DNA of 64,000 nt from Nereocystis luetkeana (taxonomy: Eukaryota > Sar > Phaeophyceae > Laminariales > Laminariaceae): NCBI GenBank assembly GCA_031213475.1, contig JARUPZ010000020.1, positions 10,095,562-10,159,561 of the forward strand, read 5' to 3'. The translations under genes were made by a program, and so were the position numbers. The notes beneath the pieces were generated by a model. It had not been told where the DNA came from, ran no database searches, and saw only the letters and a program-made list of their open reading frames with translations. Positions within the stretch are counted from its first letter, which is position 1. Each line of letters starts with the position of its first letter. Shown here piece after piece: positions 3,901 to 63,884 of the stretch.

Positions 3901-6900
3901 TCCTTGTTCTGTTGTCGGGAAACAAACACGAACATGATGCATGACAGCAGGTAAGACAGTCGGCAGCAGAGGTATTCTTGAACCACACCACTTAAACCGG
4001 CAATAGTAGGGCTGGCCACTCGCACAGTAGATACTGCCAGCAGACCGCTACGGTGAGTAACCCTCAACTGGTTGAGCCTGCCAGTATATGTTGCCAGTAT
4101 ATACGATTTTCCGTACGTCCAAGACACACGCCATACTATGATGCGGAAACTCATCCCAATGCGTTTCGGGCAGAGAGATGAAAGAAAGGAGGGGGCTTCG
4201 TTGCTAATACGGACGAAGCCACCTCAGCTAATGATGCCATTTCGCTCCAGATGTTTTTTGTTTTGTTGCCTCGCTACTCCCTGCCTCGCTTCACTCGGCG
4301 TTGCACGCTTTACGGACACAATTCAGTATACTGATTGCTGACGCAGCCAGTACATATCTACTGATCGAGTCTGTCATACCGTATGTTTATACGCTCGTGC
4401 CCATACCCACTATTGATAGCGTCATATCCAACATGCAGGCGGCGAGAGCTACTTACATCGCTGGCCTATTGCTGGTCTGCTATCACACCGTTTGTGTGTC
4501 GATTGTACTGCAATGCTGCTGTCATACGAGCACGGCAAAATTAAAAAGTTTCTACACGACGACCCGCTAACATTTATATCTACAAAAAAACTTTTTTGGC
4601 TCATCGGGGACCGTTTCTCTTTCGGCCGCGGGTCTTTTCTCGCGTTCTCGGTTGCAGGGCATGCAGGGGGGGGGCGGGAACACTACTGTGGAAGCGTGGG
4701 CCCCGGTCGGGCTCCGTGGCGCGTGCTCAGGGCGTTCAAATTCGCGCGCGAGCTGGAGAATAATGACGGGACTGTTTTCCGCGATGCCGAGCATCCCAGG
4801 ACCATGAAAACAAAAAAACACACATACACGCCCTGCTACTGTTTTATCACACCGTCCCTCCAGCTCTCAAAGATGTCTGCTTTGCGGCAGCCACAGTACA
4901 ACAGCAGTCACACATCAAGCTCTTCCCTTTGCGACGGCCACCGACGGTGCTTCTGTGTGTGTGTGCGTGTGTGCCGTACTTCCTGTCGTCCTATTCATAG
5001 GAGGAGGCAGGAAGGAACACATATTCCCAAAGGAGCGGTTCAATTGTTGCTGGGGCAGGATGACATATAACCACACCTCTTCGGAATCCCAGAGGCAACC
5101 GCGCAGCCACGGTACAGACGTACAGACTACAACGACAGCAGCAGTATAGCACAGCAACACCAGCAGCAGTGCAACAGCAGAGGTACAACAGTACCAGCGC
5201 TTCACGCTCAACTCTTTGAGTCGGCCACGGTGCTTCTGCGACTGCGTGTGTGCAGTGTTCACCAGGAGACCCAATCGTGAATACATTTTCACGTCCAACG
5301 TTTAAGCCAACCACACATCGTCGAACCGCAATCTATCATCGTACAAAATCGAAACCCATGATAATGATGATGATGATGATGATGTCCATTTTCAATTTGC
5401 GGCACCCCCGGAATTTGAAGTCCACCACATCCAGGAGGGGACACTTGTGCATACGGTAAATACCAATCCAAGCTGGCTGTCCACAAAAACGTGGTTGCAA
5501 AGCAGTTCTGCAAAGGTCGTCAGAACGTCAGTACCTCCCGAGTATCAGTCCTTTCAGCTTTCAGTACCCTACTATTACGGGGGACCATATTAAACAGGAC
5601 CTACGCTATGCACAAAACCTATATATTTCGCTATTTTTACTATTAATAACTATGTCTGGTCCTATATACTATGGTCCCCCGTAATAGTACGGTAGGAACT
5701 CGCGAGGACTCTGTCATCTCAGCTGTTGGTGCCCTAGGGCCTCGTTAGGACTCGGTCATTTCAGCCTTCAGTACCCTGGGGACTCGCAAGGGCTCGGTAA
5801 TTTCAGCTGCTGATACCCACGGTACCCAGTACTTCAAAATGACTCGGACTGAAGAGTCAAGGACTGCGTCCCGACCACTAAAATACTACTGGTTCTCTGT
5901 CTGAAGATTTTTGGCATATTTGTTTCAGGGCGATAGCAAAAAATCCAGAAAATAACGTGTTTCCTTTTTGTTTCGATCGGTACTCGCGAGCGCTCGGTCA
6001 TTTCAGCTTCTGGTATCCTCGGGGCTCGCGGGGATTCCGCCATTTCGGCTTCTGGTGCCCTGGGGACTCGCGAGGACTCAGTTGCTTCGACTTATGGTAC
6101 CCTGGTTATTCGCGAGAACTCAGTCACTTCAGCTTCTGGTGCCCTGGGTACATAGTACTTTAAAAGGGCTCGGAGTCGCGACTCAATGACTGAGTCCCGA
6201 CTGCTTGGACTCAGATTCTGACGGTTTTTGCTTGGTTCTGCAGTCAGGCCGTTTCCTATGCGGTTCGATTCCTGAGCTTCAGATTTTGCCCCGATCGCAT
6301 TTTCAGATGTGGAGTTGGCAATCGAAACAGTCTTCCTATGCGGAAAAATCAGATGTATTGTGTGTGTAGAGATTCGAGCAAACGCCGAGACCAACTGCTG
6401 TTTTTGTGGTTCAGCGCCGCGATGGGACGCGCTGGGTGCGCTGCCCTGCGCGTAGGACCCAAGCGTGCGAGCCAAGGCTGACTGCCTCTGGTTTGGCGGC
6501 AAAGAGACGTGGCGAGTGCGCTAGAGCCAACCTGTCTTGGTATTGTGTGTTCCATTTTATGACTGACTGCTGCTGCTGCTGTACAGCAGTGTAGTCTACG
6601 AGTACTCGTGCGTATCCACGGAGAGGTGCGTGTCGAGTACGCGTCTCTTGGTCTCTAGGCCCGAGCCCGCGCCAGGCGACTGTAGTCTGGCCACGGAGGG
6701 ACGGCCCCCCCGCCACCCGAGCGTCGGGCGCGAAGCAACGTCGCTATACCGCTCTGTCACCATCCAACTCATCGATCGTTCTGCTGCTGCTGTTTACGTC
6801 ATGGATAACATCTTGAATTTAGAGAGTATGCCATTTTTCGATTTGAAAATCTGATGACCCAGGTCGTCGGAGTTTGGGCCAAAATCCGACGACGTGGGTC

Positions 6901-8143
6901 ATCGGATTCTCAAATCGATTTTTTTCCGGTCGGATTGTGCATATTTTGGACTGCATAAGCAGGGTCATTCATTTTTTAGATCGAAAAACACAAATCTGAA
7001 GCCCGAAATCGAACCGCATAGGAAACAACCAAAGGTTCTAGGTTCTACAGCAGCAGTATATGCTACGATATACAGTGGGTACCCCGAGCGCATCCAAGAT
7101 TAGACAATTCGGCATGCCCCGCCTGTACCACTTCTGTAAACACTACCAGGCACCGTACATGATGCCCACTACAGATAGCAGCAGTGGCTTGTTTCGGCTT
7201 GTCACGGGGTGCTTTCGGATCGGATATAGCCAACCCACGAGTAAAAAAAAACGTACCTACCTGGTATATATTGGCGAGCAGCACAGAAGCAGTAGGGTGA
7301 CAGCACAGCAGAAGTGGTCAAAGTTGAGGTTGTACTCGTCGTAACTTCAACGCGCTATTGGCGGGGAGAGCCCATCGTCCATGAGACAAAACAGAGGAAC
7401 TTGAAAAGGTCCAACACGTTCGATATGAACCATGCGAATTCGGAAGCTCGCAAGGGGTGACGGTGACTCAAGCAAGTAGCAGCAGAGCAGGAGCACAGCA
7501 GCACAGCACACAGCAATAATACGTAGCGGTGTCGACTACGTACCGCACCTGTGGTACGTGGCAGTTTTGACAAATGCGGTGGAATAACACGAACATGATT
7601 CACCAAATTCTGCAAGCCGAGGCATCAATCGACAAAGCAGCAGTGTTACCTCTCTACCCTATCGGCGTGCAGCAACTATAGACATTCGTGACAGGTATGT
7701 TTGCTTGCAAGCCCACCGGGTGGATTGCTTGAAGCGGTAACAGCACGAGCGGCTCGTTCGTCGCTACAAACATGTTGGCCATTGCCACCGATTCAAACAA
7801 AAACCGACCAAAAACATGTTGGTATCACCTGCTTCGACAGCTCGTAAGCTGCCGCGAGCCCGGCCCACCCCGCTCCGATTACGACCACCTTCTTCCTCTT
7901 GTCTTCCACTGCTCCCGCCCCGACACTCCCGCCGTCCTCGGGCTCGCTCTGCATCGTAGCAGAGCGCACCCGACGTGCGTGCCACAGCGGTCCGTCCGCA
8001 TGTGACCGCTGACGAATGCGAGGACTCTCAGATAGAGACGATTGCTGGTGTCGGAAAAGCGAGGCAGTGCCCCCTCCAGGGACGAAGGCAGCCGAATAGC
8101 ATGATAGGAGAGCCCACGTGACGATGCATAAGCTGTGCCGCAT
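866..8143 (-). CDS. Plastid-targeted FAD-dependent amine oxidase / carotene-desaturase-like enzyme, split gene, 3' end not in window
   Basis: Exons on the minus strand: 8143-7829, 3908-3796, 2575-2473, 1119-998, and a tentative fifth at 953-866. All junctions are AG/GT and codon phases agree (0, 2, 0, 2). Residues 1-18 are a signal peptide (MRHSLCIVTWALLSCYSA) followed by AFVPGG, the A-F cleavage context of heterokont plastid presequences, and then a Ser/Arg-rich transit peptide. A Rossmann FAD motif (VVVIGAGWAGLAAAYEL) lies at about residues 86-101. The next exons encode VTLLEGG, GGLVAGW, EAGVHGFWYPYRNIF, QYSPEGLEVISPIFQ and LPSPLGTFLYP, in the order expected for the cyanobacterial/plastid FAD oxidoreductases related to phytoene and zeta-carotene desaturases. 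The substrate cannot be read from this part. An ATG at 8221 is in frame, but its extra 26 residues would spoil the signal peptide position, so 8143 is preferred. Intron 1 is 3.9 kb. The C-terminal half must lie left of the window or in exons I did not find. Confidence 0.85.
1880..2470. repeat. Degenerate ~65-70-bp tandem repeat in intron 3 of the FAD gene
   Basis: The core AAAAACGCCTCTGCTGGTG, followed by AAGCAAACGG and CCTCCGGACCAA-like words, recurs from about 1900 to 2430 (clear copies near 2016, 2080, 2133, 2190 and 2360). Units are diverged. The short ORFs through it are not coding. Confidence 0.6.
3555..3790. repeat. Degenerate CTG/CTA trinucleotide tract, intron 2 of the FAD gene
   Basis: About 230 bases of imperfect trinucleotide repeat (ctgctactgttg-type) lie immediately downstream of the exon 2 donor at 3796/3795. 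The plus strand reads as poly-Leu, but no gene supports that frame. Confidence 0.8.
5525..6165. repeat. ~47-bp minisatellite, intron 1 of the FAD gene
   Basis: The unit ACTCGCGAGGACTCGGTCAT, followed by TTCAGCTTCTGGTACCCTGGGG, recurs about ten times with divergence. It is interrupted by a MITE at 5575-5684 and by about 110 unrelated bases around 5840-5970. Confidence 0.8.
5575..5684. mobile_element. MITE family B copy (TA target), inserted in a minisatellite
   Basis: Terminal inverted repeats TTACGGGGGACCATA and TATGGTCCCCCGTAA, with TA directly on both sides. It splits the ~47-bp minisatellite of 5530-6160, so it is younger than the array. No coding capacity. Confidence 0.85.
6839..6917. 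repeat. 33-bp near-perfect inverted repeat (hairpin)
   Basis: Arms 6839-6871 and 6885-6917 are inverted copies with about three mismatches and a 13-base loop. They are centred on GACCCAGGTCGTCGGA and its complement. This may be a tiny foldback element or a cruciform-prone site within FAD intron 1. No family partner was seen elsewhere in the window. Confidence 0.8.
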
Positions 8144-8517: not shown

Positions 8518-9802
8518 CTGAAGTGACCGGGAGCGGGGTGGAGGACGGTGCCGATGACGACGAGGGAGTTTTGCTCGGTGCGGTGAAGGTAAACGTTGGT
8601 TCGGATTGGGACTTGGGAGGGGGAGAAAGTGACTACCTGGTACAAAAAATGACGATTTTACACCATCGGCTGGGTTGGGGGGTGATATATTTGGTGTCCG
8701 AACTGCAATGCAACGAGTTGTATGATCCGGGCGTAGCACGGTCCTACTCGTGCACCTGCTGCGTGCTCAGCGTGTAGTTGAAGACGGGTGATAAAAAATA
8801 CCAAACTTTTCATTGTTTTGATCGCTGCAACAGCAGTACGTACTATTAATACCTGGTACTATTATTACTGTAATATTGCCTGTACTTAATCACGGTATCT
8901 GTCGCTCGACCGGAAGGGCGGCGTACAACTATTAATATTGATAGCTTACGTCGGGCTCCCACGAAAGACATACGAGTCGAGTCCCTCTACCTCTTTTCCT
9001 CGGTAAATGTCCCATATATACCACAGCCTGCAAGCTTAAGGGAAGCCGTGCTGAAGGCACACCCCAACCTCCGTTGGCATGCCCATACGGCACTTTAAGT
9101 ATTGTACAATCGCGATGGGAATGTAGTCCTACCACCTCATCACAACAACTCTGTGTTTCCCAAATGTCAACCCCGGCCTTTTCATCGCTATCCGTCTTCG
9201 TGTTGTACGCTGTACGTATGCGTATTGCACCGAAGTGGCCATCGACAGGGTCCATTTGCGATGCCTGGTGCGTGACTCCAAAAGCTACGAGCAAGTAAAG
9301 CCGACTATATTTTCCTGGTGTACGCTGTACGGGTATATGTTTATATGTGAAATATAAAATATAAATACAAATACAACAGCAGTGTAGCCAGCGCCGATTA
9401 TTGTCCTCGGCGTACGATTACGTCGTCCCCGGTATTATACGTATGTATGCGCAACTGAATTATAGACAGGATCAAACTGAGACCTATTTTCCGAAACTTT
9501 TACCAAGCATACGTACCAGGTGCTGCATTTACGTGTTTGATACCTACAGCAGTAACCTTGCGTATGTTTTCCTTGATGTTTGTGACCTCAGAACTTGTAT
9601 ATTTCTAGGATGAACAATCAACACGGACGCTGGATGTGCTGGATGCTGATGATGGGTAGAAAACACACACTGGCTGTGCTGTGCGATACGAACTAAATAC
9701 TGCAATGTGCCAAGTAAGAAACAATCAGCGCACGTCGTAGGAAAAACTTGTTTTTGGCTCTCGTTTCCCTTCAAGCGTGCTTGTTTCTGTTTCTTGTCCT
9801 TG

Positions 9803-12056: not shown

Positions 12057-15000
12057 ATGGGACCGAAGCGGCCGTCGACAGGATCCATGTCAGGGTCGAT
12101 GTCGGCACGCGCAACGGCGAACCTGATGCTCGAGGCGAAGAACACAAGGAAGAGGGCGGAGGCGGACGTTCACCTGCTGGCCAATCGTCTCGCCCACCTT
12201 CAGGCGGAAGAGGAAAAGGCTAGACGAAAAACAGAGGAAACCAAACTCGTGAGGAGGACGAGCTTTTTTGCTCTTGCTGTTTTTTTCCCCTCTAAGGATC
12301 CCTAGAATACGACCGACGAAAGGATAAGCTTACAGCAGTCATGGCTTGACGCTCGTGAACCATGATTATAACGCCCATGAACCACGGCTTGACGCACACC
12401 AACCATGGAAATGACGCCCATCAACCATGGCTTGAGGTTCATCACCCACGACATTGATGCACATCAATCACGACTAGTAGTCCCTCAACCACGGAATTGC
12501 CGAACATCAATCATTGTATCAACGCACATGAACCATGGCCTGACGCACACCAACCATGGCTTTGATAACCACTGGCCATGGAATTGATGCCCATCAATTA
12601 AGGCATTGATGCCCACGAATCGTGACATTGACGCCTATCAAACGTGGCATGGATGCCCACCAATCATGGCATTGCTTCCGGCAGCCATGAGATAGACGCC
12701 CATCAACCATGGCATTGGCGCTCACCAATCATGATATTGACACTCACCATCGATGGCTTGACGCATTGATGCCCATCAATCATTTTTTTATGTTCATATA
12801 GGGTCTTGACGCCCGTCAGCCATGACTTGACGTCCATCAACCATAACTTGAAGTACATCAGTCATGACTTGATGCATCAACCATGGCCGACGCTCACCAA
12901 CCATTTCATTGATGCCCATGAACCATGGCTTGACGCCCGTCAACTGTGGAATTGACGTCCATCAACCATGGAATTGACGCCCCCCAACCATGACATTGAC
13001 GCAAACCATTGTTTAACGTCCATCGACTATGGCATTGACGAACATCAAGCATGACTTGACGCACACCAATCATGGTGTTGATGCCCACCAACCAGGACAT
13101 TGGTGCCCACCGAGCATGGCATTGACGCGCATCAACCATGGTTTGATGCCCAACAACCATGGTACTGACGACCCTCAAACATTGCATTGATGCCCACCCG
13201 CCATGTCACTGATGCCCACCAACCATAACGCTGACGCTCACCAACCATGGCTTTGACGCCCATCAACTTGACCTTCATTGACACCAACCCGCCATGGCTT
13301 GACGATCACCACCCATGATATTCCCATCAACCTTTGTATTGACGCTCATCAACCATGGCTTAACGCACATCAACTATGGTACTGACTGTCCACCATGACG
13401 TTGACGCTAGTACCTGTTTTCAGCACTCAATTCGAGGTGGGGTGTCCATGAAAGTACGACCTTGTCTGGCTATATACCCTTCGTTCGCGTTTTCTTTTGC
13501 AGCGCGCAGCGGAGATCAAGCGGCTGAAACAACAGAACCAGGAGCTTGCACGAGCGCGGGAGACGAGCGCTCTCGCTCACGGAAAGAACATGACCAACCA
13601 CGAGAGAGCCGTAGCAGCAAGAAAGAACAAGCAACAGCAGGACTTACAGGTAAAGAAAAAGCAAGCAACAGCGAGACTTGCGGGTACAACGATGACAGCT
13701 ACCTGGTACCTGCTAAGCCTTTTCCCCCCTCCAAAACGTATCTCACACTCATTCTAAATGGTTAGTCCCCATGAACGTCACGAATAAGGTGCTGTCCTTA
13801 GGGGGCTAACACCTCTGTACCAAGGGAACTAAACAAAACTCGAGAAGTTTGGCCATACATGGCTTCGCCTCGGGCATTCCTGTCTCAACAGATCATTCTT
13901 GTTCATTTATAAGTGCGACAGTCCGTGACGCCAGTTTTGTAGCGTGGAAGTTTTGTCGAATACCAATCAGCACAAATAAGTATTTCACCACCCACTATTG
14001 CTGTAGCATACGCACTAAAATAAGGGTGCTAAAACGCGCGATGTCGCGTCGCAGGCAAACAATGGCACTAAAACAGTAGTAGTACCAAACGTGGTAGCGG
14101 AAGGAGACAGACTAGCGGGTGTTATCAAAGCCATGCCAACACAACAGTGCGGTACGCGCCACTACAGCAGTGCGAACGGATGTTATGGAAGCCATGCTGC
14201 CACTACGGTGCGGTACATGCCATTACAGAACGAGCGGACGTAATCACAGCCACGCCACAACAATGCGGCACATGTCACTACAGTGCAGTAAGGGGTATTA
14301 TTTGAGGCCAACATGTTCTGGCTGACGAGGCTATTAACCTGTTGCTACTCCATTCAGGAACTACCCAATATTTGCGGCCTATTCTGTGTTTTCGATCGTT
14401 TCCCCGTGTATGCTTCACCAACGGGATTGTTGCACGCTTCGGACAGACCAGATAGATCACTCCCACTTGATGATCTAGATACTTAAGGGCATATACATTC
14501 CTGAGCTGTGCGTACCAGATCTACAGTAGTCCATGTTGCCAGGTGGGAGCCATCCAACCTAGAACAGGTTTCCTATTGGATCTGTACAGTACAGATCCCG
14601 CATAATCTCTCATAGCGGCATGTTATGATCTGCAGTAGATTATCTAGATCGTGATCTGTCGGAGGGGTGAACTGTTTATCGGGTTGCGCGCATTGTGCAT
14701 TTTTTCTTAACGTCGTATTTTGGGTGGGGTACTATTTACAGTAGTAGTAGCAGTAGTAGTGGTAGAAGTAGTCGTAGTATTAATAGTAGTAGCAGTAGTA
14801 GAAGGATAGGAGAGAACCCACCGTAGGATGACGCAAAACTAACAACGGACGGGTGCTCTTCGCCATGACCAAACGACCGTTGGGTGGTTGCAGTCGACCA
14901 AGGCTAACCTCGAGAAGCAGAGGAAAACCAACGCTAAGTGCGCGCGAGAGCAGCGTCAGGCCTTGCAAATGACCTACCAGGTGAGCACCTTCGACTGGGT

Positions 15001-18000
15001 GCCTATCATTCACACGGCAATTGTTATTTTAAACGCCGCAGCTGTGATGTCGAGGATCTTGTCGAAACTCGCTTTTGCAACCTGTGTGTGTTTGATACTT
15101 CGATCGCGCCCACGGCGGGTTGGACGGAATCATCCTTGCGAGCTGCGTGAGATACTTCAATCGCGCGTGCTACTACTTTTACTGCAGATGACCTCGTGAT
15201 TAGGTATCGTGGTGTTCATACTTGGTAGTTGCGTGTCCCTCTCCCGCCGGTGAAGACAGCCGACGCCTTGACATGCTCTCGAAATCTAGCGGCGTACGAA
15301 AAATGTGGTAGTACCCAGCGCTCAACTGCGCAAAAAAAAGGATATGATCCAGCGCCAACGAGACCTCCGCGTAGCAGTATCCCATCAGTATGGTGTCGGA
15401 GGCGAAGGATGAGAATTACGTACGTGGTACTCGGTACACGTGATGAACATGCCAGACCGGCCTACAGGAGCACGTGGAATGCCGCTACAAGAGTTGCTGT
15501 ATCCAGGGGTCAGGCTCTTCTGAAGGTGCCGACACCGAGTGTTTTCCCTATCGAATGGTCTACGAACCCTTTTGGGGCTTGAATATAGCATAGCGACCCA
15601 AACAAGAAAGCAAGTGATGTTGGATCAACCTCCTATTAATAGTACGGGAGGCTACAGCACCCACACCCTAAAATCGTGTATGCCCCTATGATATGCTTAC
15701 ACGCCATATTGCGTGATTAACCCCTTAAGTACTGAAGCCCCGATTCGGGGGCAAACCAATCTAATTCGAAGTGATTTGTCCCAAAAACGGAACGGCAGTA
15801 CTAAAAAGGGTGAATGCTGTGTAGCACTATCACGCTAGGGTGATAAGAACACACACCCTCTCGGATGATATTCAAAACTGGCTTTATCGATAAACGGTGA
15901 GAATGAAAACGCAGAGCGACGCGTCTATGGGAAGATCTCGACGAGATATTTCCGAAGCCAGCATTTTCGCTGTGTGCACCCTGGGCCCTTAACCCTTTTA
16001 GGACCGCAGTCCCGTTTTAGGGACAAATTTCTTAGAATTAGAGTGGTTTATCCCCAAAATGGGGCTGAGGTTCTAAAAGGGTTAAGGCAGGCCTTGGAGA
16101 AAATCGGATCTGAAATTCATCCCAGGGGGTGTGTTATCGCTAGCGTGTTATATATACGGACTATATATACCAAGGTTGTGTTCGGTTGTTCGGTAAGGTA
16201 CATACCGAGGCGTACCAGCGGTAATGTACCTCCGGTATACCGGTACCGAGAAGTTCGGTACCTTCGGTATGATCTCCATACCGGTACCGAGGACTTCGGT
16301 ACGTTCGGTACGAGGTCCATACCGGTACCGGGAAGTGGTACGTTCGGTACGCAGTTCGTACCGGTACCGGTGGTGCCGGTACAACAGTCCGTACCGGTAA
16401 CGAGATGTTCGGTATGTTCGGTATGATCTCCATACCGGTACCGAGAAGTTCGGTACGTTCGGTACGAGGTCCATACCGGTACCGGGAAGTTCGGTACGTT
16501 CGGTACGTCGTCCGTACCGGTACCGAGCATACCGGTAGTTCGGTACGATGTTCATACCGGTACCGAGCGTATACCAGTACCGAGAATACCGGTACCGGGA
16601 TGATCGGGAAGTTAGGCATGGTATTTACCCGATACCGCCACACACTCACAGCACCAGCAGCACAGCCGTAGCCTCTTCGCTCGGTACACTACCCTCTTCG
16701 CTCGGTACACTGGCGCGTGCCAGCCGCCTCATGAGCGCCGCATCAACCCCCGCCAACCACGATGCCCCCGCTGCTGGCGGGGGGGGCAACAACGAGGCAC
16801 CCGCCGCTGGCGACCAAAGCTCATCATCGCCAGTGCCGGCGCCAGCACCTTCGGAGGCAGGAGTTGTTGTCGTGGATGGTGGAGGAGGCACGGGCGTGCC
16901 AGTGATAGGGCCTGCTCCCATCTACGACAGCGCAACGAACACAGAGAGAGAAGTGCCGGCGGAGACACTCAAAGCTATCGATGAGTTTGTGGTGCCGGAG
17001 GGGTATCGGAGGGAAGGGACGCGTGAGGCCTCTTTCTTGTACTCGCTCGGTGTGTACGTTGAGCCGATAGATTCGAAAAGCAAGGCCTGCCGGTACTACT
17101 GCTTGGCGAGCGCACCGTGCCGTTCGAAGAAACACACGGTACCCTGCGTCATGCATTTTGAAATTGACATTTTGGGCGGGCAATATGAGAGACGCTCCGC
17201 ACACACACACCACCGGTATCGCCGGTATCACCGGTACCGGTACCGGTACGGGCTTCCATACCATACCGAGAAGTTCGGTACCTTCGGTATGATCTCCATA
17301 CCGGTACCAAGGACTTCGGTACGTTCGGTACAAGGTCCATACCGGTACCGGGAAGTTCGGTACGTTCGGTACGCAGTTCGTACCGGTACCGGTGGTGCCG
17401 GTATAACAATCCGTACCGGTACCGAGATGTTCGGTATGTTCGGTAAGATCTCCATACCGGTACCGAGAAGTTCGGTATGTTCGGTACGTCGTCCATACCG
17501 GTACCGAGAAGTTCGGTACGTTCGGTACGATGTCCGTACCGGTACCGAGCATACCGGTACCTTACCGAACACAACCTTGATATATACGGTACTATGTGCC
17601 CCCATTGTAGGAAGAATTTGCTTCACAAAAATGTGTGGGGTACCGACTCATACTATTAATAAGATAGAGATACATAGCAGTTTCGGGCTAAATAGTTTCT
17701 GACTGAAATGCTCCACAAATGAGGAACTACCGTACACAATCTGATAGGGATAATAGCATGTGTGCTATGTGTTTTGTCCCGTTAGTTTCGTTCTATACAC
17801 ATACTGGTGTGGGAGTTTTCATCTAGTTGCACTGTTATTATACACCACTCTATTTCAACTCTTCAGAATTTCCCTAAGCGTGAACTCTCCAAGTGAGAGG
17901 AGAACAGCGCTGTCGTAACCATGCGTCCGCTTGCACAAGTGTCGTACATCTCCTTACGTTGCACTACTGCTACTGTAAGGACGCGTCCCCTACCCCCCAT

Positions 18001-27954: not shown

Positions 27955-28066
27955 TTACGGGGGACCACAGTTGATACCAGGTAAGACCTATGGTATACAT
28001 GAAAACCTATATATTTAAACATTTTTACTAACAATATTTGGTCCTGTTAACTATGATCCCCGGTAA
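27955..28066. mobile_element. MITE family B copy
   Basis: TTACGGGGGACCACAGTTGA to ACTATGATCCCCGGTAA. Same internal CCTATATATTTAA and AATATTTGGTCCT words as the other copies. Confidence 0.8.
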
Positions 28067-28141
28067 TAGCAGTAATGTACTGATTGACCTGCCCAGTATT
28101 CGCAAGTAGTTTTATCTTTCGCCATCGTAGCATATAACCCA

Positions 28142-32438: not shown

Positions 32439-35400
32439 GTGCGTCTTATTTAAAAATAAAAACGATATTTTACCGCAGTTTCGACATCGATGATTTCGTC
32501 GAAACTCATCTTTGCAAGCTGCGTATGTAGTATGTATATGGTACAGCAGCAGCAGTTCGATCGCGCTTACTACTGTATGCGGGTGTTTATATGGCCTCGT
32601 GAAGGATGTATGACACGGGATATATCTTGGTTGTTGAGGGGGGAAATGTTGCCAAAGGAAGGATTGGTTCACCCCACCCGTTTTTCGGGACGAAGTGATC
32701 CAAAATTTAGAGTTTGGATCGTGTTTGCAGTACGGTGCTAATGTATACCAGGTATGGTAATTCTTAGAGCACCGTAAACAAAGCTTCACACCATACGCAG
32801 CTCGCATCGATCGATGAGTTTCGATGAAATCCTCGATCTCACAGATGAGGTGTTTTTATTTATTTTATATTGTTTTCAATACTGTTGTACGGCTTTCAAA
32901 AGCTACATCCACGTTTTTTTTACATTATCGGTCCAGAGGAATAACCCACTCGACCGCCCAGTTAGCGCTGACTGAGTGCTCTACACTGGCAGGTTATCCC
33001 TTCCAACCAATACATAACCTACATGGATATTTCGATACCCGATGACGTTAGTGGCTAAGCTCCCATGGCGGCGGGACAGCAAGAGTACATGTAGACATGG
33101 TGTAGAGTGCACCTGGTACAACATAAGGGTGTAATTACCGGGCACCTCTCGGGAACACATGAAGTCTCTTGGAATAACGGTGGGATCATGTTCGCAGTGG
33201 GTTGGTCGATTCTGTGGGACGTGAGAAGAAGAAAAATGCCGAAGAAATTATGACCCGAAGGTCATCCGAATGTCGCCCAAAAGTAGCCCGAATGTTGTTG
33301 GTGTCATTCGAATGTGACCGGAATGTGATCCGAATGTAACAACTCGATTCCAACGCGAATGCGACCCGTATGTGCTCAAAGTGTGCTCCAAATGAACCAG
33401 ATTTCATCCGAATGCCGCAAAAAACAACCCGAATGTCTCCCGAATTTCATCCGAATATGACCAGAATGCCATCCGCATGTGCATACGTAGAGCCCGAGTG
33501 TATTCCGAATGCGATCAATCTGTGCTTCAAATGTGTGCATAGTGTGACCCAAATGTGGCCCGGATGAGCTTCTGAATGCGGCCGGAATGTGATCAAATTG
33601 TGCTCCGAATGTAATTGGGATATGCCCCCGAATGTGATTCGAATATTATCCGAATGTGCAGGCGGTGGCGCAGGATGCGACGAGCAGGAAGGCGCCGATC
33701 CTTGTGACTGGAAACAACGTGGAGGTGACGGAGCCGCTCAAGGAGTACATCGAGAAAAAAATGGTCAATGTCCTCGACAAGGTAAGGCGTGCGCTACAAT
33801 ACGCAGGAGTCCAGTGGAGTACCCAGTTTATGACCATCCGGTTCTAAGACTCTTCGGGAGATAAGACCCCGTAAATAGTCTAGTCACGAAAAGTAATCTA
33901 CTCGGAAGTAGGATAGGATAATATTTGCAGGAGTGAAAGACAATACCACGTAAATGGCGTCACGCGGCGGTACGAAAGTGGGTACCCCAGTGCCAAGAAA
34001 GCGCGCCTCAAAAGTGGTCCCTAGCAGGATGCAGCTCGCCCTTAATGCTCATGCGACTCGCCCAACCCCTCACGGCGTTTCGCGCTTGGTGCATGTTAGT
34101 GCATGCCTGGTCGGTGAAGACACGACGTGCTTCATCCCGGCATTGTAAGGATGCGAGGGTCTATGGTCATACGACTACGACCATGCATGACGTGAGTACA
34201 CCTCTATCCTCTTAATCCTGCGATCGCATACGACTACGGCCATGCATGATGTCGAGTACACCTCCCCCCCCGTACACGTGTATACGACTACGGCCATGCA
34301 TGATAATGAGGACACCCCCCCCCCCCCCCCGGCTGGTCAGGTGGGGTCGAGCGTGTCGAAGGTGGACGTGCACCTCAGCGTGAACAAGAACCCGCGCGTC
34401 AGCGAGAACCACAACACGGAAGTCACAGTCTTCTCCAAGAACCACGTCATTAGGGCAACCGAGACCAGGTAAATAAACCGGTCATTGCCCTTACATTACA
34501 CCTGGTATTGTGGTAGTCATGGATGGGGATGTTGTATGATCTATTATCACTAGACTACAAACAGGGCAGAGGAGTGGACGATTTCGGTGTCTTGGAGTCG
34601 GCTTAGGCGTTAAGTAATATTAGTAGTACGCGTTATTGATTACGAACATAGAAGTATACCTTGGCGCTGCACTGAGGTGGGGAGAGGCACGGCCATGTCT
34701 GTAATAGACGACGGGTTGGGACGGAGCACTGGAATACCTCGGCATTTTGGGGTCGGCTTACGCGTTATGTGCATACGGGTACCAGAAATATGCACTGCGC
34801 ATGGTCGGATGGCAAACAATTACTGGTTTATCGGTATGAATGTCTACCTGTCCAACGCTGGTCGAACTCCGTGTGAGCTCCTTTCTAACGAAGATGCTAC
34901 GTGTAGGTGATGTTTTTTTAGGCACGCCAAGGCCTATTTTGACCTTAATATACTAGTTTTAGTGTAGGGGGCGGTCAGTCAAGGGGTCAAACCGCTGTCT
35001 CTTAGCGTATTTCATGCTAGTTTTAGTGTAGGGGACGGTCAGTCAAGGGTTCAGACCGCGGCCTCTCAGCGTATTTCATGCTAGTTTTAGTGTAGGGGAC
35101 GGTCAGTCAAGAGGTCAAACCGCTGTCTCTTAGCGTATTTCATACTAGTTTTAGTGTAGAGGACGGTCAGTCAAGGGGTCAAACCGCGGTCTCTTATAAT
35201 CTTGCATCCTAGGTTTTAGTGGAGGGGGCGGTCAAGCCGCGGTCTCCTAGCATCTTGTGTAATATTAATAGTTATTGTGTGTTGTGTATTGGGGCGGTCA
35301 GTCAAGGGTTCATACTTCGATCTCGTATGACGAGGGAAGAAGGGACTGAAGTCGTCCTGCGATAAAAAGGAAGGCACGAACAAACCGTAGGTGGGAGGGG

Positions 35401-35848: not shown

Positions 35849-38800
35849 CCCGGTACCCGTTGTTGCTGCTCTAGCGACAGTTGTTGTTTCTTGCTGTTAT
35901 TTGTTTGCTCGGGCTCTTGCTGCTTATTTCTTCCTGCTCTTTGGTACCTGGTCCCTGGTAGTTATTTGGTTTACTACAATACTGTTACGGGGGGCCATAG
36001 TAAATAGGACCATATATTGTTACTAAAAATAGAAAAGGTAAACATATTGGTTTCTGTGTGTGCCATAGGTCCTACCAGGTACCAGGTATTTCCTATGCCC
36101 CCCCGTAATACGTTATTACAGGGAAACATATACGTATATCAGGTACAACACCGGATAATTTTATTATTGTAAAGGGGATAAGGAGTGTACGGGCCCATCG
36201 TGGGCTCTGATTACTCTGTGTTAATACCTGGTATATTACGATGTGCTATGTATTATTAATACTACGTACCCCCCCCCTATATAGGATGGGTTGGCGTCGG
36301 TTGTAAAACCAGCCGCTCACTACGTGAGCTAGACAACCAGGGTACCGTTTTTTTGTTTTTTTTTGGCGGTCGCCCACAGCTGGTTGCCGAGTTAGATCGT
36401 TTGTGCGAGGCAAAGAACCTTTACTTCGCACAATTGGGAATGATCGTATCACATACCAGGTAGTGTTCAAGGTAAGGCACCCAAGAGGCAGTTACATAGT
36501 GCTCCCATTGTTGTCTCTGGAAATGCCTACACTGGAAATTAAATCAACTCGTTGAAGCTGTCGTCCATAAGCAAGTCCGCCTCAAAAGCGGTTCTTAGTA
36601 CGTAGGATGCAGCTCACCCTTCATGCGACTCGCCAGACGCCTCACGGCGCTTCGCGCTTGGTGCAAGCAATGTCTGCCTGGTCGGTGAAAACCCGACATG
36701 CTCCGTCCCGGCATTGTAGGGATGCGAGGGTCTATGGTCATACGACTACGGCCATGCATGAGATCGAGTACGTATCTCTCCTGTCGAGTACACCCCGCCC
36801 CCCGTAGTAGTTTTGGTTGTTGCTGCTGTTGTGCCTGTTTCTTGTGCTATTACGGGGGACCATAGTACATAGGACCAAATATTGTTAGTAAGAATAGCGA
36901 AATATATAGGTTTTGGTGTGTACCGTAGGTCCTATTTACAATGGTCCTCCGTAATAGTTCATGCCCTTGGTGGTGCTCTTCTTGTTCGTGTTCTTGCGCT
37001 TTTTTTGCCATACTGCTGTGCATATCGCACCTACTGGCTTGTAGATTGCATCTCTAAGGCCCTTAAGACCTCATTTGTGGGCCCGATCATGCCTTCGCCT
37101 CGTCTCTGGGGCTCATAAAACGGGCGTACTTCTCAAGTCCCTCATTGCATCTCAGAACGTAAATCGAGGTACAGCACTACGTGAGCGTCTTTATACTCCT
37201 TTCCTGCCGCTATGATATGCTATGCATGATCTATTAAGACGCCTCGGACATATCATGATCTATCTGGTATATCTATCTACTGCAGCTCATCTAGATCCTA
37301 TCCTGCCGTCATGATATGTTATGCATGATCTGTATCGTACAGATCCGAACCAGGTAGCATGTGCTTGGTCGTGTAGATCATACGGCTCCCACCCGGCAAC
37401 ATGAGCTGTCTATCTGCCCCGACACATCTGGATCATGAACTGTGGGGGTTCGTGATCTAGATCACTTGGTGTTCATACTTTACACATACCGGTATCATCG
37501 TGGCGCTAACCTCTACCCTCTGCCTCATCCCCCCCCTCTCGCGCTACCCCGCCCCGATTGTTTTGCGCCGTCTCGTTTTGTGTCCTGACGCCTCCTCTTC
37601 CCCCCTCCCCTCCCCTCCCGCCCCCCCCCCCTCTTCTACTACCCTCCCCTCCCACCCCCCTCCCCTTCCCTCCCCCTCTCCTCTCCTCTCCCCTCCCCTT
37701 CCATGCCCTCCTCTTCCGTGCCCTCCTCTTCCGTGCCCTCCCACCCCCCTTCCTTCCCCCTCCCCCTCTCCTCTTCCCTCCCCTCCCATGCCCCCCCTCC
37801 CCCCCCCCCCCCCCCCCCTCCTGTTTTGTGTCTGTCGTCTCGTACCGCACTGTATCTCGTCATGCCCCTGTGATTTCCGCGGCGGCTGACCATCCTTGGC
37901 GTGCTCTGACCCTGCCTTGTTTCGGGTTAACTTCGGGCCCGGTGGTCATTGGATGCTCTGCACTGCTATATACCACTACTTATATGAACTACTATATGCA
38001 GGTGGTGGAGGCGGATCAGTCCAGCGCCGCGGCGGCCGCAGAGGCGGTAAGTACAGGCAGTACGGCCGTGAAGCCTACCATGGTATTGGATAGCGCTGTC
38101 GCTTCTCCTTGCTCACGAGTTGCACTAGAATGTGCCTGTTGTCGGTTCAGCTGCTTGCTGACGGAGTGCGGGTTGTTTCCTGTCGGCTACTACTGGCGAA
38201 GAGCTAGCGAATACCTTGTAGGAAACGATACAACGAATGGTATCGAATAGCCGGCGAAAAATAGCGAAGAGCTTAGCCAGGGACCGTCCAGCCACGAGAT
38301 ATTCCCAACGTAGTGTGTACGGCTTGTTTTGTCCTTGATTTTTTTTTATGGCCTTGTTGTTGGTTTCGGTGTTATTCCCGCTCTTGTGCGTATTCTCGCT
38401 CATGCTCTTGCCCCTTTGCTTGGCTTGCTCGCCCTGATTGACCCGGTGCACCTTGCTCACCACTTACGCTAGACCACTTTTCAATCGTTTTTTGTTGTTG
38501 TTGTTGCCTTCTTTGGCTTGCTCACGATTTGGACTATTGAGTTGGACTAGTTGTCGCCATTTGCAACTGTTGTGAAATGTCTACACACATAAACACACGT
38601 GTCTCGTCTCTTCGGGCTGGTTTGTGTTAGTGGACGATTCACTTACCCCCCCATGCTCGCCCGGATTGACCTGATGCACCTTGCTCACCAATTACGCTAG
38701 ACCACTCTTCAATCGTTTTTTTTTTTGTTGCCTGCTTTGGTTTTCTCACGAACAGACACGATTTGTCGCCCTTTGCAACTGTTGTGAAATGTCTGCACAC

Positions 38801-52900: not shown

Positions 52901-55900
52901 ACGTGCCTTCATTTTTTATCTCGAGAAGATTTCAGCCTTTTTCTTCCCTCGTCGACTCGCATCGAATTGTGCCTACCCACGCTGCAAGGCGCTCTCAACA
53001 ATTGAATCCCTTTTTTTATTTTTGCAAATAAAGTCAAAGTCCGACCCTCCTGGGGCTCGAACCCAGGACTCAAACAAGTAGAATTCGAGGTTAACCACTT
53101 GAACCACCGGGGCGACATGCGCTACCTCGGCCATCGTGCGCTTGCCAAACGGTCGTACAAACTTTATCGGAACTTCATCTCAACGCGTCGAGCTCCTCCT
53201 ATGTTCCTCTTCGACCCTGGGTATCCCATATTTCGTTTATTTGGCACCCATTTCGTTTTTTTTTAAGTCCTCTGGGACTTAAAAAAAACGAAATGTGAAA
53301 ACGGAGGTATCGGGATCTCTACTTCTAATTTTTACAATTTGACCAATAAAACTCACGTACTCTTTAGTTCTGTTTTTCGTTTTTTCATTTCGTTTTTTTT
53401 TCCCGTTTATTTTGCCCTCGATAAGACTGGCCCTATGTGTCTGGCCTCCTCCCTCGGTTGAAGTTTTTACCAGGTACCATGGTATATATTAACGTATAAA
53501 CTCTGTACTCGTACGTCGTACGTAAAAGTCAGCACTGATGTTCGTATTTGTACATGCATACATACATGCGTACTCTGGTTTCACTTTTTCTTCTTTGGGG
53601 TGTGCGACGTGCTCAGTTATTAAATATTAATAGCTGATGTGATGTGAACTCTGTCGTTTTTTCATGGCCACAGCAGTCGATACAGCACCATATGGTCTTT
53701 GTCTGCTCCACCCCGCGTCGAGGTGGTCTCAGGTTTGGTACGGCAAGATAAGTTCGTGCCGAGCAGGCGGTTCCGCTCCGCGAGGATGGTCTAGAAGATT
53801 TAAAGCTGTCGACGAGGGGGGGGCGGCAGAGTAAATACTCTTGGCGCCCCCGCCGTGGCGAAACAAACGACACTACTATTACGGGGGACCATAGTTAATA
53901 GGACCTATGGTGTACATAAAAACCTATATATTTAACCATTTTTACTAACAATATTTGGTCCTATTAACTATGGTCCCCCGTAATAAGCCTAGTAATAGTT
54001 ACTCTCTGCAGGTCCAAGTGGAGCCCGTGGTATCTACATGCTATAAGGATTACCCTGGGCTGGGTAGTCGATGGATCTTTTACCCCCATAGTAGGTAATA
54101 CCATCACATTTGACGTCGTCCAGGTTTCTTTTTCAAGTGTTGGCCACCTCGCCTCCGGGGGGGGGGCACGACAGATTTGTTTCTTCTAGTTTTTGCTTCC
54201 ATTTTTTTCTTTTTCTCTTTCTATTTGTCTACTTTGTTTCTGTTTTCTCTTTGATTGTTGCCTTTCGTTTCTCTATTTCATAGATTGTGTATGTCGTGCC
54301 TGTCGTATTTAGTATGATGACATGGCTTTGCATTGCCCACTGCTGTGCTTACTGCATGGTACGTGGCAACGTAGTATCTCTGTGGCGTAGCTTTGTGACC
54401 ACAGAACTTGTATATCTTCTAGGATTGAAGAATCGGCACGGGCACTGGTTGTGCTGGATGTCGACGGGTAGAAAGAACGGTTTAATGTGAAGAACACACA
54501 CAGGGCACGGCTTCGAACCTCACTTCGAACGTTTCTTTTATAGAAACGCTTGCGCGTGCGTACAAAAACGCATCTCCCTGGTTCCCCAGGTAATGGAACG
54601 AAGCGGGTAGGTCAGCGTACAGACGTGTACGGTTCTGACGCCCCTAAGATCCCGCCGTTCTGAGGGGGGGAGAGGGTTGTAAGGATTACCCTGGGCTGAG
54701 TAATCGATCGATCTTTTACCCGTACCCCTATAGCTCGGTACCAGGTACCCTGGTATGTATTGCCATCACATATACCCTAAACAAAGGAATACAATCCCGA
54801 TTTTGAAGGCCATGTGGCACGCCTAATGCTATAGGCGCATTCTTTTGTTTCCGGACTTTCATGGACAGAACACCGCTTGTTGCGCGCGTTTTTGTCTTGG
54901 TTTTAGTATTACCTCATTTTGGCTCAAACGGATCAGGTATACCTCATTTTGGCATTTGCCCTTATTTTAATATTTTGGGTAATAGCTGAAGTATGTACGA
55001 AAGAGAAAGCACAGCACGCAGCACCGCAAAAACAATGAAAATGAAACCGAAATTTCGGGAAGAAAAACAAATCCCCGTACCCTCTCATGTAGATTTTTTC
55101 TGCCTGATTGGAACACCTTGCACGGTTCAAGAAAGAAAAAAAACGAACAGCAGAGCTTCTCTCTCAGCCTCGTACGCCGCCCGCCCCTCTCGCGATCACC
55201 TCGCCACCGATTCGGTCCGGGTTAAGCTCTCCTCCCTCTCTGCCACAGTGAGCCCCGTCGCCCGCCTCGCGTGAAGCCCGTTGCTCACAGTGGCCCTCGT
55301 TCACCAGCTCGATAATGTTGATGCTTAGACTGCGTAGCTCCCTCAACCCGGTCGCGAAAAAAAAACACCGCTTGAATGTTACCTTGTAATCCCGAACGAC
55401 CCTTATAGGTCGTCCATACTCAATCGAATTATGCAGACGGAGGCTAGACAGAGCCCGTTCATGCTTCCCTCGTGTCTCAAGGCACACGCGACGCCTAGGC
55501 ACGAGCTCGGCGACCGCGCTCCTTTCAACCCCCCCTCTACCCGCCAGCACCCGCTGACACCCGCGACGGCGCCGGGCTCGCCCGCAGTGCAGTGCTCCGA
55601 GTACACGCACGCACAAGAAGCGAAAGGAGAAAAAAGAAAAAAGAAAAAAAGGGAAGTGCCAAGAGGAATGGAGGAAACAAAAAACCGCTGGGGAGACATC
55701 CGGCACGTAATAAACGGAGGCGATTTCCAAGTGGGAGCTGTGAGAGGCCAGGGATGTTACCAGCCGAGCACGCCCAGAGAGCGAGATACCCGTAGGTGGT
55801 TCTATGTATATACAAGGCGCTTCGGTCCGCGGGCGGACTACGCCGCCCGCTACGCTCGCTCAGGAAGGAAAAAAGTACATCAAATTAAGCGAAGCGAACA

Positions 55901-58900: not shown

Positions 58901-61888
58901 CATGTGGCAGAGGCAAGCACCCCATCGATGTTGATCGACTGATACGGCATGAGCTGCGAGCTCCGCAGAGCTGGCAAAATAGATGGTCCCAGCTGTAGTG
59001 TTGATGTTGATTCTTAGCGGTCTCGAAGAGGAGGTTATGGGTGGGGAAGGAGAAGAGAAGTGAGAGTGCACCAGCGCATGCTCATTGATCACAGCAGTTC
59101 AACTAAAAGCCGAAAAAATAGTACAGGTCGTACTACCCTCGGGAAACCTGAAAAATGCGGCATGACGGCATGATCCTACGAAAGAACTTGGGCAGACTCT
59201 TCGTGCGGACCGCCTGCGGTGCCTCTCTACGAAACCGTTACGAAATCATATAAACTGATATGATATGATAATGATATCGTGTCATTTACAGATCGAAACT
59301 GCTACTCGTATCACAACAGCGTCATGTCCGTACTTGCTGTTGTGTTCTACAGAGTATCAACTACCAGGTAGATGGCCGTGCCTCTAACAGCGAACCGATA
59401 GGCCACGTACTTGGTGCTCTACCGCTGTTGATGATGTTGTTGTTGTTGATGTTGATGCTGCGCAGCACCACCGCAGCTATCCTGAACATGTTGTTGTGGC
59501 CCTGTTGTGTCGTTGCTGTGACGTTTTTGTGATGGTGTCATGCTGCGATACGGCAGGTGGCATCATGTGTGAGCAGCAAGGACAATGGGCGTTACCTTCC
59601 TGAGTGGGTGGCGTATCACTGGGCCCTTGGAGTGGACGAGTTCGACATCCTCGACGATGATAGCGTCGATGATACCAGGGAGGTGAGAACATGGTGGTGG
59701 TGGTGGTGGTGGTCGGGGGGATGGTGTCAGTGGTTGATGGAGGTGGAGGGGAGTGGGAGGGGGGCGGGTGGTGGCGGTGATGGTGATGATGGTGGTGGTG
59801 GTGGGGATGATGATGACGAAACTGGTGGAGGAACCCAGAAGTCGTACCGAGTACGTACGTTCCTCTGTCTCGTTCTACAGTGATGGTCATGATGGTGGTG
59901 GTGGTGGTGGTGGTTGTTGGGGGTGGGGGTGGAGGGGGGGGTCGAATAAGTGCCTCCAGGTACCAGGTAAGATGTAGGATGTACTGGGCGTACGGGGAGC
60001 ACTTGTTTTTACTGAGGCTCCTCGATTGAGAAGCTCTACACTATTAGCAAGTCATTCGAGTCACCCAACACCCGACTTTGAAGAATGAGTTGTCAGCTCA
60101 GCCCGTTTCATGATCCCACCTGGGCTCGTAGCTGTAGGTAGCTATTGTACTACTATTAATGCTGCTGTATCCCGAAACGAAAGGAGCTTCTGTGTACAAT
60201 GAGTACGTCCAAAGGGTCTCTGTAATTTGGTACAAATTGCCAGTATCGAAGAACAGTGTAAAATACGTAATGGGTCCAAGCGTATTGGGGATAAGCTCCT
60301 CGTTTGCGATGGTTGCCATTTGCTATGGTTGTCCGTTGGAATAGTTATCAGTTGTAATGGTTGTCAGTTGCAACGGCTGTCAGTGGCGAAGGTTGTTGGT
60401 TGCGGTTCTTGCCAGTTGCGATGGTTGCCCATTGCGATGACTGTCAGGTGCGATAGGTTGCGATGGTTGCTAGGTGCAATGGTTGCTAGTTGCGATGGCT
60501 GTCAAGGCCGATAGGTTGCGATGGCTGTCAAGTGCGATAGGTTGCGATGGTTGCCAGTCGCGATGGCTGTCGGTGCGATGGCTTGCGATGGATACCAGTT
60601 GCGACGACTGCCAGGTGCGATAGGTCGCGATGGTTGCCAGTTGCGCTGGTTGTGCGATGGTTGTCATTTGCAATGGTTGTCGGTTGCGATGATTGTCAGT
60701 AGAGATGGTTTATCAGCTACAATGGTTGTTCGTTGCAGTGGTTGTCAGCTGCGATGGTAGCCAGTCACAACGGCTGTCAGCTGCGTTGGCTGTCAATTGC
60801 AATGGTCGACAATTGCGATGGTCGCCAGGTGCGATGTTTGAGGCACGCCGTCAGTGATAAACGCTTGGACTCCGGAGCGTTTTAGTACTTGTAGTACCCC
60901 AACATCTGCCGTAGCCCGGCTCTAATAGTACAGTACTACTATTACGGGGGGCCATAGTTAATAGGACCAAATATTGTTAGTAAAAAAGGTTAAATATATA
61001 GGTTTTTATGTATACCACAGGTCCTATTAACTATGGTCCCCCGTAATAATACACTATCTATAACAGTAGTGTACCAGGTATACTTCAAGGGAGTGCTCAA
61101 CCTCTCACTCCCGTTTTGGGGGCATGAGTCAGATAAATCGCTTGGCATTACTATGGTATGGTACTGGGGGGCGGTAGTACAGGTAAACTACCTTCCGGTA
61201 GAGCCAGCGGCGTCGGGGGGTTTCCACACCGTGCCGGGCGGCATATCACGACGGATATGGTATTGGGGAGCGGTACTACTGGTAGCATATCCCTGTTGGT
61301 AGGCAATACGCAATGTCTTACAACTTATAACCCGTTTTAACCTTAAGGACGGCCCTCCCGATGTGGGCACAAAAAGACTTGAAATTATCTCCAGATTTAG
61401 GTGTTTTGGCGGTGCAGCACTATAGGGGTTATTGCGTGGCATCGAGACGTGCTTGTGCTAGTTTCTGTGGTTGGACTCGCTTCGCCAGCCCGTGATATAT
61501 ACCAATACATACCGAAATGTTGGGACCGTTTACATTCAATGCTATTACGGGGGACCATTATAAACAGGACCAAATATTGTTGGTAAAAAATGGTAAATAT
61601 ATACTGAGTAGGTTTTTGTCTATAGCATAGGTCCTATTAACTATGGTCCCCCGTAATAATATACAAACTGTCCCTGCTTTGGGGACAGCGTCAAGTCCAC
61701 CCCACCCAAGGCTTGCCTTTTTTCTCGCCGTCCTTGGAATTGACCTGGAACCTCTTGTTGTTGTTGTCTTCACGTTAAATCGCATTTTCTACCAAGCTTC
61801 ATCACTACACCCAGTGTCCGTCCTGATTCCTCATCCTAGAGAGATACTGATTCTGTGGTCACACACTGAGACAGAGAAATACCAAAAA

Positions 61889-63445: not shown

Positions 63446-63480
63446 GTTCGTATTTTACTTTCTCCCCCGTTGAAGCCCTA

Positions 63481-63585
63481 TTACGGGGGGCCATGTTAGA
63501 TAGGACCTACGGTGCTTTTTAAAGCCTACCTATTTCGCTATTTTCACGAACAATATTTGGTCCTATTTACTATGGCCCCCCGCAA
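63481..63585. mobile_element. MITE family B copy
   Basis: TTACGGGGGGCCATGTTAGA to TATGGCCCCCCGCAA, TA on both sides, 105 bp. Confidence 0.85.
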
Positions 63586-63884
63586 TAGAAGGGGTTAAAA
63601 TCAGAGACCTTTCTTCTTAACGAGGAAAAGTTGAGATGAATACTTGATGGGGGGTAAAGTAAAGTATTGTTTCGGGATCATGTACGCATGCTCTTTTTTG
63701 TTGCTTTTTTAGGACATTTGAGCGACACTCGAGGTGCAGGGCAGCTGGCGATGACCAACGCTGTCGCGGTGATGACGTGCGGTACTTCTCGCTGCAGTTC
63801 TCTCGTGCGCATTAATTTTCCGCACACGCATACGAGCGATGTGTCTGTTTCTCTCGCCCCCGTCTCCCGCCCCCCCCCCCTAGA

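Follow-up and report, generated by a model that had tools for sequence, protein, structure and literature searches.

The ends of hAT transposons usually start with CAAGG, and Hermes, the hAT of the housefly, makes an 8-bp target duplication, as does the element described here. In Hermes, BED fingers bind short subterminal sites and are paired on a quasi-palindrome just inside the left end (PMC10368747). In Herves, a hAT of Anopheles, the transposase has a subterminal binding motif, and the left end contains tandem repeats, three imperfect copies of 100 bp (PMC3143072). Spm/En and other CACTA elements have subterminal repeat arrays that are recognised by the element protein TNPA (PMC2613891). 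Among the titles and abstract openings returned by a literature search, none described a hAT with arrays such as those presented below.

The window, the whole 64-kb stretch of DNA that was analysed, contains an element that can be compared with each of these systems. As in Hermes (PMC10368747), it has short subterminal sites and a left-end palindrome; here one site lies 11 bp inside each end, with more sites inward. Its longer relative shares with Hermes a C-terminal dimerisation region with the ER motif. Unlike the scattered AAGT motifs of Hermes, the TTCGGTA sites here form arrays of about 300 bp, built of 41-bp units and in the same orientation at both ends. Herves shares a subterminal binding motif and tandem repeats with this element, but its repeats are at one end only and are not described there as an array of its binding sites (PMC3143072). 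Spm/En has subterminal repeat arrays as well (PMC2613891), but it is of a different superfamily with a 3-bp duplication, whereas 8-bp duplications and a hAT transposase are found here. Membership in CACTA, which needs CACTA ends in addition to the 3-bp duplication, was rejected on the 8-bp duplications and CAAGG ends. The unusual features of this locus are the form of the arrays and a coordinated change of their motif.

Are such arrays platforms for a transposase, or are they the product of homogenisation between the two ends? The preliminary description of the locus had offered both. Our main reading, which we hold at a probability of about 0.75 on sequence comparison, is that the element is a young, internally deleted hAT that would be mobilised in trans by a transposase of the type encoded at locus L067, with the arrays as putative docking platforms.

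A recent burst and a longer relative

A hAT insertion had been proposed from an exact 8-bp duplication and inverted ends, and both are present. The duplication ATATATAC at 16163-16170 is identical to 17580-17587, and the short inverted ends, which start with CAAGG in the manner of hAT ends, are perfect over 16 bp in the window copy (CAAGGTTGTGTTCGGT) and over 23 bp in the consensus of its copies (CAAGGTTGTGTTCGGTAAGGTAC). The window element is a young, internally deleted, non-autonomous hAT. Its features are as follows, coordinates being positions in the window and the copy consensus being numbered 1-1403.

16163..16170, no strand: left 8-bp target duplication ATATATAC
16171..17579, + strand: whole non-autonomous hAT element, 1409 bp (copy consensus 1403 bp)
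16171..16201, + strand: left inverted end (CAAGGTTGTGTTCGGTAAGGTAC in the consensus; the window copy alone has 8 bp duplicated in tandem here, TGTTCGGT)
16237..16607, + strand: left array; most units measure 41 bp, one measures 33 bp, and shorter ones lie at the inner end
16731..17150 (end approximate), + strand: what is left of the transposase's first coding stretch, which breaks off within the presumed zinc finger; matches L067 4315-4831
17264..17559, + strand: right array, oriented like the left one
17557..17579, - strand: right inverted end
17580..17587, no strand: right 8-bp target duplication ATATATAC

The window copy also carries a private 2-bp deletion in its left array. A Pfam search with the element's own remnant ORF gave no match, and one with ten other ORFs of the window gave a single weak match, under its cut-off.

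A DNA search of the assembly to which the window belongs (465 Mb, 1987 contigs) gave 116 candidates, of which the best 40 were scored, so that the copy number is a lower bound. Both ends are present in 39 of these 40 close copies (L001-L040), L026 not having yielded both, and the 8-bp duplication is perfect in 38 of the 39, with one mismatch in L034. Four copies (L036-L039) have identical flanks and sequence and were counted as one insertion, leaving 36. Each copy differs from the 1403-bp consensus by 0-11 substitutions, mostly private, so the burst was recent. The target duplications of the close copies prefer roughly N-W-A-T-W-T-W-C. Genome-wide, there are 71 forward and 64 reverse matches to the exact 15-bp end (0 for the reversed control), and places were listed for 100 of these 135. 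Many copies thus share the ends, each with different 8-bp duplications, which bears out the proposed insertion.

Beyond the close copies, 26 further loci were retrieved. Fourteen were paired, with a perfect 8-bp duplication in 11 and one mismatch in 3. Others were less complete: L057 has an exact end without an array, L063 shows only a 68-bp match (73.5%), and L061, L062 and L066 gave no end pair with a duplication within two mismatches. L066 was nevertheless included in the comparisons of array retention, identity, CGGTA counts, trees and motif swap. In L068, a reverse-transcriptase-like frame (YADD, read by eye) lies at 6502-7815, upstream of a hAT right end.

An autonomous relative had been anticipated, and L067, which holds a 5.58-kb relative of the window element, encodes a hAT transposase. 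Its last coding stretch, the C-terminal exon, matches PF05699 (hAT dimerisation; 2.7e-10, 40.4 bits, cut-off 21.4) and Hermes (2.2e-5, through the ER motif). The other three of its four coding stretches contain C..C..H..H, VDLW, and TTDSRPD with QRW, respectively. VDLW, TTDSRPD, QRW and ER were read by eye as candidates for the DDE catalytic residues and RW motif of the Hermes pattern, with only ER aligned to Hermes. None of the first three stretches had a match in Pfam, and a PDB search with two of them found no transposase; the large catalytic exon had no match in Pfam or to a solved transposase (PDB). The C..C..H..H stretch, found by eye and presumed to be an N-terminal zinc finger, a candidate for the BED finger of hAT transposases, matched no Pfam model and no solved zinc finger (PDB). 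The duplication of L067, GAAAATAT, is directly after the right end and, on the other side, 11 bases before an altered left tip; with this tip altered, L067 may not itself move. A search with the L067 exons gave 91 candidates; among the best 40 of these, the one identical place was L067, and no further copy was both close and full-length.

The window-element consensus matches L067 on either side of a deletion (1-972 and 978-1403) that begins inside the C..C..H..H stretch, and this alignment makes the window element an internally deleted form of an L067-like parent. A second derivative, B (L047, L048, L052), has the same ends and a different middle, about 325 bp, of which 123 bp match the last L067 coding stretch at 97%. 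Within L067 the hAT end recurs in inverted form with one mismatch (8869-8883), after the last coding stretch and 612 bp from the right end. This internal copy is conserved with its surroundings in several derivatives, at 488-569 bp from the right end in L041, L042, L050 and L053 and at 1459 bp in L043. The possibility that it is a relic right end was dropped, as no array adjoins it in the stretches examined.

Two arrays in direct orientation

The arrays are real. With at most one mismatch, TACCGGTACCG occurs 39 times in the window against 1.11 expected, a number reached by none of 100 shuffles, and 34 of the 39 matches fall inside the element. The first 400 bp of the consensus contain 46 CGGTA sites and the last 360 bp contain 44, counting both strands (shuffle means 6.8 and 5.8), a 6.8-7.6-fold enrichment. 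The middle of the consensus has 5 against 0.9 by shuffle, and in L067 the 4.8-kb middle holds 7, with 7.1 expected. Other tandem arrays in the window lie at 12340-13386 (about 22/43 bp), 34953-35234 (about 64 bp) and 60304-60840 (about 16 bp).

The array unit is 41 bp with sites at fixed offsets, and each consensus array has one irregular 33-bp unit. In every 41-bp unit there are two TTCGGTA sites, spaced by 9 bp, and TACCGGTACCG contains an inverted pair. A further TTCGGTA site lies 11 bp in from either end, and the one at the left tip is completed to a palindrome by a second site in inverted orientation. This partner, TACCGA, is exact in 17 of 20 left tips from the window subfamily (A), from B and from the family of L067 (O). 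The right tip in A and B also has TACCG, spaced differently. Unlike the inverted ends, the arrays point the same way at both ends, as a direct repeat (consensus 66-361 and 1088-1383) with 286 of 296 positions identical (about 97%). Both arrays, mostly of 41-bp units and in direct orientation, are kept in 18 of the 20 A/B/O elements despite different internal deletions, the remaining two being one-array recombinants. Unit number varies, with an 85-bp, two-unit duplication in L036-L039 and a 9-bp insertion in L035. The same unit order on both sides, as first described, holds in the window subfamily but is not general among its relatives.

In an unrooted array tree of 15 of the 20 elements (B_L048, B_L052, L041, L045 and L049 left out), in which the bootstrap is unsettled, the left arrays of 13 O elements including L067 form one group (92/91), their right arrays another (100/100), and a third takes in the arrays of A and of B from both sides (100/100). 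Left-right identity is 0.96 for A and 0.95 for B, whereas 14 O elements range over 0.77-0.91, and O arrays match the same-side array of L067 at 0.82-0.98. By these tree groups and pairwise identities, one array is shown to have been overwritten by the other in the A/B ancestor, which is why the A arrays are about 97% alike. Homogenisation between the ends thus occurred in the window subfamily. As to the donor, a unit-by-unit test was mixed (A arrays match L067 at 0.85 left and 0.89 right). Later exchange inside single copies is suggested, though weakly. Among 68 array substitutions in 38 copies, 5 are at left-right differences against 2.3 expected (P 0.08), and in all 5 the new base is that of the partner array (P 0.001 or 0.012, depending on the base bias assumed); L022 has a short tract of this type.

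Direct arrays have also recombined with each other. L045 (381 bp) corresponds to the consensus with 1022 bp removed, the distance by which the two arrays are offset, and changes from left-type to right-type bases within its array. In L049 (340 bp) the switch is at another place and out of register by one unit. A genome-wide pattern for elements of 356-386 bp gave L045 again and L070 (381 bp), an O-type recombinant. All three have perfect 8-bp duplications. They are left-array/right-array recombinants, and recombination after insertion is the simplest account; deletion before insertion would be a less simple one. Recombination between the terminal repeats of an LTR element leaves a solo LTR, one repeat between the target duplications, and the likeness extends to the intact duplications found here. 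Unlike a solo LTR, the product comes from a cut-and-paste element and retains inverted ends and an array, and so might still be mobile. Arrays in direct orientation would thus be a concrete one-step route to very short non-autonomous elements.

A sister family with another motif

Besides L067 and B, the candidates scored with the L067 exons include a locus on C11 (72-77%) and 32 loci that match the last coding stretch at 76-85%. Flanks were taken for 6 of these 33 loci, and all six contain TTCTGTA units, mostly 40-41 bp apart. The end of this sister family (P), CAAGGTTAGGTTCTG, occurs in the genome 47 times forward and 56 times reverse (0 for the reversed control). One-array elements are found in this family too (L090, 337 bp, with a perfect duplication).

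Counted on both strands, the 20 A/B/O elements contain 378 TTCGGTA and 8 TTCTGTA, against 1 and 133 in 12 P sequences; these are related copies rather than independent sequences, so that a Fisher value on the counts does not express a real probability. P shows the same G-to-T change in its inverted end, and its left-tip palindrome has it in either half; the palindrome reads TTCGGTA-AGGTACA-TACCGA in A/B/O and TTCTGTA-GGGTACC-TACAGAA in P; the partner TACAGAA is exact in 4 of 7 P left tips. Most P ends were located by a pattern already containing TTCTG. In the six P loci reached via the transposase, the right end has TTCTGTA in three (L083, L084, L085), reads TTCCGTA in L081, is altered in L086 and was not found in L082. 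The right tips of L083, L084 and L085 read TTTAGGGTTAGGG just inside the inverted end, which we take to resemble plant-type telomere repeats.

Representative O and P units agree at 29 of 41 positions, while the best rotation of 10,000 shuffles gave at most 25, and an irregular unit with GGTRCCGGTAC is common to both families. The array thus probably predates the split, and its motif has since changed nearly everywhere. The six P elements with two exact ends have perfect duplications (L090, L093), one mismatch (L089) or three or four mismatches (L088, L091, L092). A 9.9-kb P stretch on C11 has no matching duplication in its flanks and may therefore not be one element. Its transposase is decayed: exon 3 contains a stop, the finger exon lies on the opposite strand and the ER glutamate is Q. 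The sister copy L081 matches PF05699 at 5.9e-05 (23.2 bits, cut-off 21.4).

Proposed function of the arrays, and a dispersed palindromic element

In the proposed mechanism, the N-terminal C..C..H..H stretch would be a zinc finger that binds the motif. The platforms would be kept uniform by exchange between units and ends, as shown for the A/B ancestor, and exchange among units would let all sites change together with the finger. Docking specificity would have turned over between O and P, a change shown on the DNA side and supposed on the protein side. Sister-family arrays in which the motif has changed almost everywhere suggest that the arrays are docking sites that probably evolve together with the transposase. 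Both options first offered have support; for transposase binding it is indirect and comes from the retention of both arrays in 18 of 20 elements, from the motif lying inside the inverted end and from array and end motifs changing together. Several points count against docking: the C..C..H..H stretch and the large catalytic exon have no library match, homogenisation alone would also yield family-specific arrays, most P ends came from a search pattern with TTCTG, and L067 has an altered left tip and may not move itself.

Could the arrays instead be passive minisatellites, kept uniform by slippage and conversion, with family motifs that differ by drift? We give this a minor share of the probability. 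It would explain the varying unit number, as in the 85-bp duplication of L036-L039 and the 9-bp insertion of L035, and the visible exchange between arrays, and homogenisation would spread any neutral variant. It fits poorly with the recurrence of the G-to-T change at single sites, namely the inverted end and each half of the left-tip palindrome, and with the keeping of both arrays in 18 of 20 elements while different middle parts were lost. That the left array, directly upstream of the first L067 coding stretch, is mainly a promoter or regulator of the transposase and the right array its copy is improbable, as derivatives without a complete gene retain both arrays and the motif belongs to the inverted ends. 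An origin in another DNA-transposon superfamily with 8-bp duplications, on which duplication length alone is presumably not decisive, is largely refuted and hardly credible given the hAT dimerisation domain and Hermes match of the parent.

Returning to docking platforms, a transposase with many sites would seem unable to change its specificity, because all of the sites must change too. We suggest only tentatively, as a possibility we would not bet on, that the two hAT families in this one genome are orthogonal lock-and-key systems, in which exchange between units and ends would change dozens of sites together, so that specificity turns over while mobility is kept. The price of direct arrays would be solo-like collapse which, if true, would yield short elements keeping ends and docking sites in one step. 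Living in a single genome, the two families look like a before-and-after pair, and in one of them exchange of units between the ends can be seen.

The window also contains a dispersed palindromic element, about 105 bp long, whose ends read TTACGGGGGACCATAGTTAATAGGACC:

5575-5685, 36850-36955, 53880-53985, 60942-61048, 61545-61657 and 63480-63590: copies
28000-28070 and 35980-36090: parts

Its arm has 13 matches in the window against 0.00 expected, and the hAT elements L003, L005, L012, L045 and L070 are inserted at the same base of such a palindrome arm.
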